A stretch of 32,189 bases of DNA, taken from NCBI GenBank assembly GCA_937924035.1, contig CALDTK010000189.1:1-32189 (forward strand), in the 5' to 3' direction. The translations under genes and the position numbers were made by a program. This DNA is from an uncultured Saprospiraceae bacterium. GTDB lineage: Bacteria > Bacteroidota > Bacteroidia > Chitinophagales > Saprospiraceae. The notes under the pieces were generated by a model. That model had not been told where the DNA came from. It did not search any database and saw nothing but the letters and a program-made list of their open reading frames with translations. Below, piece after piece: positions 19,861 through 32,189 of this stretch. Numbering within the stretch: position 1 is the stretch's first letter; each line of letters begins with the position of its first letter.

Positions 19861-19976
19861 AATTGTCAATTTCTAATTGATAATTGGTAATGATCACGAC
19901 GCTTGCTCACCTTCGGTTCGTGAGGACATCTTGCTCGTGTCTCGGCATTATCAATTGACAATTACCAATTAAAAAT
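19861..19976. repeat. Imperfect AT-rich inverted repeat between the methyltransferase and nucleotidyltransferase genes
   Basis: The left arm (about 19861-19891) and right arm (about 19944-19976) are built from AATTGNNAAT-type units (AATTGATAAT, AATTGGTAAT, AATTGTCAAT) and are roughly inverted with several mismatches. The 50-bp centre is GC-richer and holds CTCAC...GTGAG. It could be a miniature element, a terminator-like structure or slippage-derived sequence. Confidence 0.6.
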
Positions 19977-19987
19977 TCTATTCCTCC

Positions 19988-25171: not shown

Positions 25172-25843
25172 ATGCGAATAGCTTTACTCAGTGTATTCTT
25201 TTTAATGAGTCTTATTGGCTCCGCTCAGACCCTCTCCTTTGAGAGTGCACTAGTGACGGAACCCGCAGACCCAGCTATTGGAGACATCTCAACACATAAT
25301 AGAATAATCAACTCTGGCAGCAACCCTGTGAGAGCTCGTTGGATTCGTGAGGTAAATGATTTGCCAAGTGGATGGCTTAGCGCTATCTGTGACACTAATC
25401 AGTGCTACTTGCCACGCATTGATTCTGCCGATTTTATCATTCAGGCTAACTCCTCGTCACCAATCATTCCACACATTTACCCTGATGGTTCTGCAGGAGA
25501 TGCTCAGGTAACTGTACGTGTAGTCGACATTGATGATCGAAGCAATAATGCCGTTTCTACTTTTTCATTCCCAATGATCAGTAGCGTGAAGGATCCATTT
25601 TCTTCTGGGCCTAAGCTCTACCCTAATCCTGCAACGAATGAGTTTAGTATCCTCTCAGATGTTAGCGTCAGTGAAGTTACAGTAACAAACATGCTTGGTA
25701 AGCTTATCAAAGTATATTCTGGTAACTCTCCATCCTATGATGTTAGCGACCTACCAAACGGTATTTACCTCGTGTCCATGAAGGATAACTATGGAAGAAT
25801 CATTAAGACCCTCCGCTTTAGCAAGAGAAATTATCATCCATAA
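25172..25843 (+). CDS. Short secreted protein with T9SS type A sorting domain
   Basis: A 223-residue protein. Signal peptide MRIALLSVFFLMSLIGSAQ, a ~120-residue beta-rich middle with two cysteines (CDTNQC) and no recognised domain, then the Por secretion tail: KLYPNPATNEFSI, VTNMLGKLIKVYSG, LPNGIYLVSM and a basic end (FSKRNYHP). This is the normal layout for cargo moved across the outer membrane by the type IX system. It ends in a very strong terminator and is convergent with the truncated intron. Function of the passenger is unknown. Confidence 0.88.
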   Translation: MRIALLSVFFLMSLIGSAQTLSFESALVTEPADPAIGDISTHNRIINSGSNPVRARWIREVNDLPSGWLSAICDTNQCYLPRIDSADFIIQANSSSPIIPHIYPDGSAGDAQVTVRVVDIDDRSNNAVSTFSFPMISSVKDPFSSGPKLYPNPATNEFSILSDVSVSEVTVTNMLGKLIKVYSGNSPSYDVSDLPNGIYLVSMKDNYGRIIKTLRFSKRNYHP

Positions 25844-25875: not shown

Positions 25876-25912
25876 AAAAGGCCAGTGCTCAGAGAGAGCA
25901 CTGGCCTTTTTT
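25876..25912 (+). terminator. Intrinsic terminator after the short T9SS gene
   Basis: AAAAGGCCAGTGCTC (25876-25890), 5-nt loop, GAGCACTGGCCTTTT (25896-25910) and TT: a perfect 15-bp stem with U-tract. It lies 33 bases past the stop. Confidence 0.95.
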
Positions 25913-25915
25913 ACG

Positions 25916-26392
25916 TCACAAAACTAGCCTGTCTATAACGGTCGGGATGCCGAGCATCCTTCCTCCGCCAGAGGCCTTGGGGATAGCAACTCCTCGTACA
26001 ACACTTACTCGGTAGTCGCCGCGTAGCAAACTTTGACGCAAACTCTCGTAGTTGAGGGGCGTCCACCCCTTCAAATCTTCGGTTGTCATCCCATCTACTC
26101 CGCAACTCCCACCGTTGCTGATTACCTGCTTCGCAGCAGCGGTCAGATTCTTTAGCGACGCTACCGCCTCCATCAAATCTTGGGTCAAGGCTCGCTTTTC
26201 TACCCACCCCGTGTGTGAATCCGTCCTACCCGACTCTTTCGCTTCGCGGCATACGCCCGCTTGGTTCAGTTTAGGGCTATTCTCCACCCATTCTGCTTCT
26301 CTAAACGGAAGCTTCATCTGGTATGCATGTGCCAACGATGGCACTGAATATTTCTCTGGACTTTTGTTCACTACATTCTCGGTGTGGAGCAC
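25916..26392 (-). pseudogene. Truncated group II intron reverse transcriptase/maturase
   Basis: 158 codons only, whereas intact intron-encoded RTs have about 420-600. The N-terminal RT part is clear: GVDGMTTEDLKGW (RT-0/1), LRGDYRVSVVRGVAIPKASG and GRMLGIPTVIDRL (RT-1/2). Then it stops (TGA, minus strand), so the YxDD catalytic motif, maturase X domain and any endonuclease are missing. The break is directly next to the terminator of the neighbouring plus-strand gene, which suggests a 3' deletion rather than an internal stop. The start is GTG at 26392 with AAGGAG upstream, both inside a small hairpin. RT identity is secure; intron class is not. Confidence 0.9.
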
Positions 26393-26402
26393 CGGCTGCT
26401 CC
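26386..26402 (-). promoter_or_regulatory. Hairpin covering the ribosome-binding site and GTG of the RT gene
   Basis: On the minus strand GGAGCA (26402-26397) pairs with TGCTCC (26391-26386) around GCCGG. The AAGGAG ribosome-binding sequence lies in the 5' arm and the GTG start (26392-26390) at the loop/3' arm. This is the layout described for domain IVa of Ll.LtrB, where the maturase represses its own translation. Confidence 0.6.
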
Positions 26403-26767
26403 TTGCGTTAAAAGTTCGGCCCTTCGCTTTAGGCAATCCAATACCTCGCTACTATGGCCTCGGCTGAGTCCTGCCTCGTCTCTCGACGCATTGGCAGGGT
26501 TCCCACGGTAAGTCCTGTGTCCTCCTTAATATCCAGCATGATTTACCACCCCTCTTTTACGTTTGACTTTGGGGCTTTGAGATTCATTGCTCGCTTACCC
26601 AGACGGTAGGCCTTATATCATGTTTCTGTTCGTCTAGACATTAATTTGATTCTCACTGCCTTCAGATTCCGCTTCACGGGGGACACCCTCGTGATGCACT
26701 AACGATTCCTCGTCAACTAGGCTCGCTCGGGACTCTAACCCCAAAGACACAGAACATGCATGGCATA
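26393..26767 (-). mobile_element. 5' RNA segment of a truncated group II intron (domains I-III/IV inferred)
   Basis: No coding potential; upstream of the RT on the same strand, as intron domains should be. Structured elements are visible: CCTGCC...CGTC-GAGA-GACG...GGCAGG (26470-26498) with a GNRA-type GAGA loop, and CACGAGGG-TGT-CCCCCGTG (26675-26693). The 5' boundary is unclear: no perfect GUGYG is found near the terminator at 26768; GTATG (directly after the T-run) and GTGTC (~26750) are candidates. Domain V/VI are not found within the window, as expected from the truncation. Confidence 0.6.
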
Positions 26768-26801
26768 CAAAAATAGGGCAGCATCTTGCGATGCTGCCCT
26801 A
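26768..26801 (-). terminator. Intrinsic terminator after the thioredoxin-fold T9SS gene
   Basis: On the minus strand TAGGGCAGCATC-GCAA-GATGCTGCCCTA (12-bp perfect stem with a GCAA loop) followed by TTTTTG. It lies 39 bases past the stop at 26841, and the intron fragment begins right after it. Confidence 0.95.
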
Positions 26802-26840
26802 AACAGATGAGATAATCCTCATCAATGTGCAAGTCTAAGC

Positions 26841-28364
26841 TTATTGAACGCTTAAACGAATTACACTACTACCTTCTGCTGCAGAAAGCTCAAGGAAGTG
26901 AACACCTGATACTCCCTGTGGAAGTTCGAATGTCATTTGTGAACTTGCTGATCTAGAAGCAAAAGTTTGAATCGTCTGGCCTAATGCATTGAATAGGCGA
27001 GCATCTACATTTCCTGTTGTGTTGAGCTGATCAAGTGAGACCACTACAACTCCTCCTGATTGAACAGGGTTAGGATATGCGTTTATTCCGTTTGCAAGTG
27101 GCGTTGATGTAGAAACAACTGTTTCAGCTGCAACTGCGAAAGGCGATTCATAATCCTCCTCAAAGCTATTGTTCACCTCACCTCCAAATTGGATGTTGAA
27201 GACTTCTTCATTAGCTTCAGTAAGGAGTTGAACTCCTGGAATAGGTTGGGTTGCAGCAGTTCTGAAGAGTCCATCTCCGTAAGAATCAAGAATAACCATG
27301 CTATAACAACTCAAATCAGTACTTCCTGGACGGAAACCGTAAGTGAATGTTCTGTTTGCATTTGCGCCACCTCCTGCAGCGACTCCAGTATAATTCTCAC
27401 TGAGAACAACATTTCCATCTCCGTCTCTTAATGTCCAAGAAGTCTCTACTGGGTAGAAGTCAGTTGTAAAGTTTAAGGTCAGAGAATCACTAACCGCTGA
27501 TGGAGAGCCTATTGTAACATCAACTTGACTATTGTCCTGATTGATATCGTTAGCAAGGTTTGCCATTACAGTGATGTCACTTTCGATACCATCTGTCAAA
27601 GCGGCTGGGAGAGATCCAGCGTTTATTGAAATAATCTCATAAGGAGCGAGATCTTGTGTAATGGTTGTTTGAGCAACAACACTTCCCCCTGACATAACTG
27701 AAACATCAAAATCTTCTGTAGCAGTAGTCAAAGAGTGATTTTGAAATTGGAAGGTAGCATCTACACTAGATCCACAAACATTAGTTTGGCCAGTGTATTC
27801 CAAGATAATTCCGTCTGCATCGTTAGTTGCTAATCCAGGATTGTTTAAGTGCCAGTTTTGATACTCAGCAACATCTGTAAAACGTCCAATTTCGTAAACC
27901 ATACGGTTTGGTGTAACCGCATAGATCGTTGGGAAGAATGCAATGTCGTAAAGCGCATTGAAGTTATCATCGTTGATGATAGGATAAGTCGTTCCAGTAA
28001 CCCAATCACCTAGACTAGTGGTAGCTGCACTTCCACCGTTGGCTGTAACGTAGAGTAGGCTCTCTGGAGTACGAGAATCCGCCTCTACCATTACCATACG
28101 AAGCTCGTCTGTTCCGTCTGGACCGTAAGCTGAGTAAAGATCTTTGAAGTACTCTCCTTCATGCCAGCTCCAGCAAGGAGGGCACCAAGTAGCCATTACG
28201 TCGATGATGACAGTTTTACCACTATCGAGCGTTTTGTAAAGGTTGAATGTATCACCAGCTATCGTCTCTAGAACGAAGTCTGGAGCGTTAGTGTAATTCT
28301 GGAGTTGAGCGAATGTCGAGCTTGCTAGAAACAAGCTGAATGCGAGTAGTAGAGTTTTTTTCAT
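26841..28364 (-). CDS. Secreted thioredoxin-fold protein with T9SS type A sorting domain
   Basis: I start at the ATG at 28364 (507 residues), where a signal peptide begins (MKKTLLLAFSLFLASSTFAQ); the ORF-track start 43 codons upstream has no signal-like sequence. Residues about 28-180 form a redoxin domain: PDFVLETIAGDTFNLYK, the active site ATWCPPCWSW (CxxC) and the cis-Pro loop FFPTIYAV. A beta-rich middle of about 250 residues follows, then the sorting tail NAYPNPVQSGG, LFNALGQTIQTF and VHFLELSAA. Probable role: thiol-disulfide chemistry outside the cell or on its surface, with the enzyme moved by T9SS. The partner is unknown. Strong terminator follows. Confidence 0.9.
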   Translation of the reverse strand: MKKTLLLAFSLFLASSTFAQLQNYTNAPDFVLETIAGDTFNLYKTLDSGKTVIIDVMATWCPPCWSWHEGEYFKDLYSAYGPDGTDELRMVMVEADSRTPESLLYVTANGGSAATTSLGDWVTGTTYPIINDDNFNALYDIAFFPTIYAVTPNRMVYEIGRFTDVAEYQNWHLNNPGLATNDADGIILEYTGQTNVCGSSVDATFQFQNHSLTTATEDFDVSVMSGGSVVAQTTITQDLAPYEIISINAGSLPAALTDGIESDITVMANLANDINQDNSQVDVTIGSPSAVSDSLTLNFTTDFYPVETSWTLRDGDGNVVLSENYTGVAAGGGANANRTFTYGFRPGSTDLSCYSMVILDSYGDGLFRTAATQPIPGVQLLTEANEEVFNIQFGGEVNNSFEEDYESPFAVAAETVVSTSTPLANGINAYPNPVQSGGVVVVSLDQLNTTGNVDARLFNALGQTIQTFASRSASSQMTFELPQGVSGVHFLELSAAEGSSVIRLSVQ

Positions 28365-28505
28365 ACGAATTTTTGTGAACCACAATTTGAAAAGAAAATC
28401 CAGCAACTGCCGAACTTCTAGCGAAGATGATAAAATCTTTGTAAATGCCGAGTCAAAAGAAGAAAAATTCCTTTTTGTGCAGTTAAGCGACACAACTGCT
28501 TTTTT

Positions 28506-28900
28506 TCAGATTGGATACCCCACCGCATTCCGCGGCGTCTCCCACAGTTTTAGCTAAAGCTCAAGCTCTTCAGGTAATCTAGGCTTCAGATAACCATAAA
28601 TCGCGGCCGCAATGTGCTCCGCCCTAGGCAACTTATCCTGAAAATCAGGAACATCCAAATTCAGGTTCTTGGGTCAAATCGATCCTCGACCTCTTCCTTG
28701 ATAAGATAATTTGTTTCAGAATGCCCAAATCCATGACGTAACCCGTATCTGGATTTACCTCACCTTTCACACACACCTCGAGCTCGTAATTGTGCCCGTG
28801 GAAATTAGCGTTGTTACAAGGACCAAACATCTTCTCACTTCATTCACTTGCTTTTTTAGAGATGGGAAGACAGTGTTAGGTATTCTACAATACTACGCTT
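28506..28900 (-). pseudogene. queD: Decayed copy of queD (6-carboxytetrahydropterin synthase)
   Basis: The region 28512-28738 is a direct repeat of the intact-looking copy at 31967-32189 with about eight substitutions, a 1-base deletion (CTTGGGTC for CTTGTGGTC on the plus strand), a 5-base insertion duplicating GATAA, and a nonsense change (TCG to TAG near the C-terminus). Upstream on the minus strand are MFGPCNNANFHGHNYELEV and DTGYVMDLG, the Zn-site HGH and active-site Cys region of the family, preceded by TGA within an otherwise matching SKKASE-SEK stretch. The whole reading frame is therefore dead. The 5' boundary near 28900 is an estimate. Confidence 0.88.
28512..28738. repeat. Direct repeat, copy A (queD duplication)
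   Basis: 227 bp matching 31967-32189 in the same orientation with about 8 substitutions, one 1-bp deletion and one 5-bp insertion, about 96% identity. The true repeat probably extends past the right edge of the window. Confidence 0.93.
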
Positions 28901-31960: not shown

Positions 31961-32189
31961 CTACACTGGATACCCCACCGCATTCCGCGGCGTCTCCCAC
32001 AGTTTTAGCGAAAGCTCAAGCTCTTTAGGTAATCTAGGCTTCAGATGGCCATAAATCGCGGCTGCAATGTGCTCCGCACTAGGCAACTTGTCCCGAAAAT
32101 CAGGAACATCCAAATTCAGGTTCTTGTGGTCAAATCGATCCTCGACCTCTTCCTTGATAATTTGTTTCAGAATGCCCAAATCCATGACG
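31961..32189 (-). CDS. queD: 6-carboxy-5,6,7,8-tetrahydropterin synthase (PTPS family), C-terminal part, cut by right edge
   Basis: The frame is open to the window edge; the ATG at 32185 in the ORF track is internal (the VMDLG of the family, roughly residue 60), so the real start lies outside. The visible part holds the family marks DRFDHKNLNLDV (catalytic His/Asp region), PSAEHIAAAIYGHL and LWETPRNAVGY. QueD makes 6-carboxytetrahydropterin from dihydroneopterin triphosphate in preQ0/queuosine synthesis; related PTPS enzymes act in biopterin routes, and the distinction needs the N-terminal cysteine region. The decayed copy at 28506-28900 has Cys in the expected place. Stop is TAG at 31961. 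Confidence 0.88.
   Translation of the reverse strand, partial: VMDLGILKQIIKEEVEDRFDHKNLNLDVPDFRDKLPSAEHIAAAIYGHLKPRLPKELELSLKLWETPRNAVGYPV
31967..32189. repeat. Direct repeat, copy B (queD duplication)
   Basis: Matches 28512-28738 as described for copy A; this copy keeps the reading frame open, and the repeat is cut by the window edge. Confidence 0.93.

Follow-up and report, generated by a model that had tools for sequence, protein, structure and literature searches.

Introduction

Group IIC introns, in which the intron-encoded protein (IEP) belongs to class C, were reportedly described by Robart et al. in 2007 as inserting after intrinsic terminators. A review likewise names intrinsic terminators as the insertion sites of IIC introns, and it describes most bacterial group II intron copies as truncated or inactivated (PMC4424553). 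Bacterial group II introns have been reported to lose the 3' terminus and to persist as fragments (PMC4496777).

In this study, we analysed a stretch of 32,189 nucleotides (the window) from the genome of an uncultured Saprospiraceae bacterium. A first-pass annotation made from the sequence alone had read positions 25876-26801 as a truncated group II intron lodged between the terminators of two convergent genes, leaving the class of the intron open. We consider it highly probable that a group IIC intron was inserted after the terminator of a redoxin gene, that its 3' part was later lost and that what is left is an inert remnant.

Results

The intron fragment lies between a plus-strand gene (25172-25843) that encodes a 223-aa secreted protein with a T9SS sorting domain and a convergent minus-strand gene (26841-28493) that encodes a redoxin-domain protein, also with a T9SS sorting domain. 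The first-pass annotation had regarded both products as secreted, in line with which the T9SS domain Por_Secre_tail was detected in both, the match in the redoxin-domain protein (25.3 bits) being slightly under the curated cut-off of 27. Both genes end in the perfect intrinsic terminators that had been noted on either side of the fragment, and both terminators are strong. That of the redoxin gene, which serves as the intron's 5' exon, is a 12-bp stem-loop at 26774-26801 on the minus strand (-23.6 kcal/mol, z -7.8) with a run of five T (26773-26769) behind it. That of the 223-aa gene (25876-25912, plus strand) consists of a structure at 25876-25910 (-27.1 kcal/mol, z -7.7) with a T-run at 25907-25912; it is conserved in a same-genus genome, and the break of the intron adjoins it.

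Between the terminators, the 5' 846 nt of the intron occupy 25923-26768 on the minus strand, the low-coordinate end, which lies inside the RT gene, being approximate to within a few bases. Nucleotide 1 of the intron is 26768 and its first bases are GTATGCC; the element begins at the T-run of the one terminator and stops 10 nt from the T-run of the other. With the Rfam models of group II introns, two D1-D4 RNA segments were matched on the minus strand within 26683-26419, namely RF02001 (group-II-D1D4-3) at 26683-26513 (117.5 bits, E 9e-24, gathering score 32) and RF01998 (group-II-D1D4-1) at 26497-26419 (40.4 bits, gathering score 35). Segments of the domain I-IV RNA core expected of a group II intron are thus present, and both fall inside 26393-26767, where a structured 5' RNA segment of the intron had been predicted. 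Weak sub-threshold Rfam matches to sbrA, mir and Thr_leader were set aside as merely the terminator hairpins. The 5' end departs from GUGYG: the window reads GTATG, which is unique to it among the 28 sites scored below, the remaining sites reading GTGTG or GTGCG (GTGYG).

The ORF at 25916-26392 (minus strand; 158 aa, uninterrupted) is an open N-terminal fragment of an intron-encoded RT and comprises RT-0 and RT-1; the final codons of the ORF and its stop fall past the break. It matched TIGR04416 (group II RT/maturase) with an E value of 7.5e-19, covering only model positions 2-78 of 353, and showed 52% identity to residues 20-153 of the RT of a full-length relative, L083. In the alignment, the similarity to full-length relatives ceases within '...LGIPTVIDRLV', at about 25923. 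The RT is therefore truncated as the first-pass annotation had claimed, except that the break, placed there after RT-2, lies slightly earlier, at approximately the border of RT-1 and RT-2. The 10 nt at 25913-25922, which separate the RT fragment from the T-run that terminates the convergent gene, show no similarity to intact introns. The loss of the 3' part, including YxDD and domain V/VI, was also borne out: in the window, the intron runs into the neighbour's terminator, and domain V/VI and the 3' splice site, which intact relatives have, are missing. The element is thus a group II intron remnant and not an active intron.

The RT fragment was compared with PDB chains. The best match was GsI-IIC (1.2e-15), followed by 5hhj, 5hhl and 7uim, all four being IIC RTs; the next, 6me0, a IIB RT, was far behind (2.2e-5). 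The RT of L083 gave 382, 314, 262 and 258 bits with GsI-IIC, 5hhj, 5hhl and 7uim, respectively, compared with 127 bits with 6me0 and 116 bits with LtrA (5g2x), a IIA RT. Since both the fragment and the full-length relative score best with IIC RTs, the IEP can be assigned to class C on the basis of sequence score.

Insertion sites were examined at the window and in 27 relatives (same family, Sphingobacterium, Pedobacter and others). A strong hairpin, defined by a score of at least 7 and an end no more than 10 nt from the first base of the intron, was located directly upstream of the intron at 25 of the 28 sites (the window and 24 of the 27 relatives), compared with 10% of 840 random positions. 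The habit of IIC introns of inserting immediately behind a terminator stem-loop is therefore shared by the window and these relatives, full-length ones included, which show the same arrangement of terminator and then intron. Because the T-run upstream of the introns hardly varies, covariation in the IIC-type exon pairings EBS1-IBS1 and EBS3-IBS3 would be of little information; the 3' exon of the window intron is lost. The affinity of the RT to IIC RTs, together with this insertion habit, settles the class as IIC as far as sequence comparison can do so, and agrees with the first-pass reading of the 5' flank, a terminator stem and T-run, as the type of site used by group IIC introns.

When the window intron was used as a query, 15 of the 298 genomes of the family gave matches, including the window's own. 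Full-length copies (ca. 1.9 kb), for which the first-pass annotation had proposed a search, were found in several genera of the family. L074, L079 and L083 are 1.90-1.95 kb in length, and the RT frame is open in each; their conserved 3' end reads CTACTCGAT or TTACTCGAT, in common form (C/T)TACTCGAT. L078 is of the same kind but starts at a contig edge. Other copies are broken in different ways. L073, L075, L080, L081 and L082 are 5'-only remnants like that of the window, L071 keeps both intron ends and has lost the RT (ORF-less), L072 carries an internal deletion, and a query with the 3' end detected the 5'-truncated copies L140 and L149. The last four copies rule out that only 5' halves are preserved, and the occurrence of all these forms indicates that decay takes several routes. 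Introns of this family often sit at contig ends in relatives, and since such edge copies escaped classification, these counts are biased toward broken copies. In L080 (ca. 935-975), a hairpin that resembles a terminator of the opposite strand comes immediately after the break of the 5' remnant.

The window's own assembly is fragmented (4.11 Mb in 364 contigs, 85.6% complete). No second intron copy was found in it, nor was the 3' part of the intron detected with the 3' DNA of a relative or with the RT protein as a query; the latter query also revealed no other group II RT. These queries were used in place of the domain V model RF00029. A search of the genome with RF00029 was negative, which has no weight since the model also misses domain V of the full-length IIC introns L074, L079 and L083, even at E 0.1. 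Just one further RT is present in the assembly, on contig C124, and it is unrelated. This locus (L088, 819-2189 and 3118-3990) has an RT with a YMDD motif near an FGE-sulfatase-domain protein and resembles a diversity-generating retroelement.

In G075, the sole same-genus genome compared, similarity of 75% spans the 223-aa gene and its terminator as far as window position 25910 and is picked up again at 28512, within a QueD-like gene. The block 25911-28511, which contains the intron and the adjacent redoxin gene, is absent as a whole. As G075 has neither the intron nor the redoxin gene, its locus is not an empty intron site and is not informative on insertion, and the deletion itself is not seen; no empty site or intact-intron allele was found for the window locus. 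In several other genera (e.g. G030:C1, G023:C92, G035:C95 and G307:C61), homologues of the redoxin and 223-aa proteins are encoded close to each other, and the block may thus have been lost in G075.

Two further features of the window were observed. Segments similar to 6-pyruvoyl-tetrahydropterin synthase (QueD-like) at 28509-28884 and 31964-32189, both on the minus strand and 94% identical over 228 bp, flank an 882-aa T9SS gene; the first is a pseudogene with extra bases and stops, and the second runs off the contig end. A short repeat (ca. 38-50 bp, 'attatcaattgacaattaccaattaaaaattc') at 19926-19977 occurs in many places in the window's own genome and in the same-genus genome with 82-94% identity.

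Discussion

Based on these results, the history of the locus is hypothesised to be as described below. A group IIC (IEP class C) intron would have entered the DNA by reverse splicing immediately behind the terminator of the redoxin/T9SS gene, past both its stem-loop and its T-run, and with the same orientation as the gene. A subsequent deletion or rearrangement would have removed the 3' part of the intron (the bulk of the RT gene, domains V and VI and the 3' splice site), ending 10 nt before the terminator of the convergent gene and leaving that terminator in place. Selection to keep the terminator would limit a local deletion, which may explain why the break adjoins it. As the remnant lacks both the catalytic domain V and a usable RT and its 5' end is altered, it should neither splice nor move, and the copy is presumably dead. 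The sequence of events proposed by the first-pass annotation, insertion after a terminator followed by deletion, remains the best reading, although the deletion step is not visible in G075, from which the whole block is missing.

A variant of this explanation, differing solely in the manner in which the 3' half was lost, is that a larger rearrangement and not a small local deletion cut the intron, placing the redoxin gene and its 3' flank beside the gene at 25172-25843, so that the break is the edge of the rearrangement. This is possible but somewhat doubtful. The similarity to G075 stops exactly at the break and restarts beyond the redoxin gene, and the duplicated QueD-like fragment suggests that the stretch has undergone rearrangement; however, with the redoxin and 223-aa homologues adjacent in other genera, the adjacency may be old and the block perhaps lost in G075. 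We think it very unlikely that the junction is an assembly artefact and that the intron is intact in the organism. The assembly is indeed fragmented, and contigs of relatives often end in introns of this family. However, the junction lies within a contig, the neighbour's conserved terminator lies beyond it, and the assembly contains no second intron, RT or 3' part for a false join.

It is scarcely credible that the element is part of a split intron, acting in trans with a 3' half located elsewhere, or that it has been retained as a regulatory RNA or a structured 3'-UTR. The RNA domains are well kept (117.5 bits as against ca. 121-144 bits in better-preserved relatives of the family), but a remnant of fairly recent origin would be expected to score well too, the 5' end carries a mutation and no 3' half was found in the assembly. 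Equally hard to credit is the view that this family retains the 5' halves of IIC introns inserted at terminators for a function, for instance as structured spacers between convergent terminators, and not as products of decay; the hairpin right after the break in L080 can be cited alongside it.

Read as an inert remnant of a IIC intron, the window element is an ordinary case, one further fossil of the kind that the decay of bacterial group IIC introns is known to leave, and leaves the understanding of group II elements unchanged. What the comparison documents is an intact IIC intron lineage in this Bacteroidota family, the Saprospiraceae. As in group IIC (IEP class C) introns, the window copy occupies a site directly after a terminator stem and T-run, its RT is closest to the IIC RTs of solved structure and its intact relatives are ca. 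1.9 kb in length; it differs from them by its missing 3' half and by GTATG in place of GTGYG at the 5' end. From the fragmented bacterial group II introns described previously (PMC4496777, PMC4424553), which likewise keep the 5' part and have lost the 3' terminus, it shows no substantial difference, its break merely happening to adjoin a second terminator.
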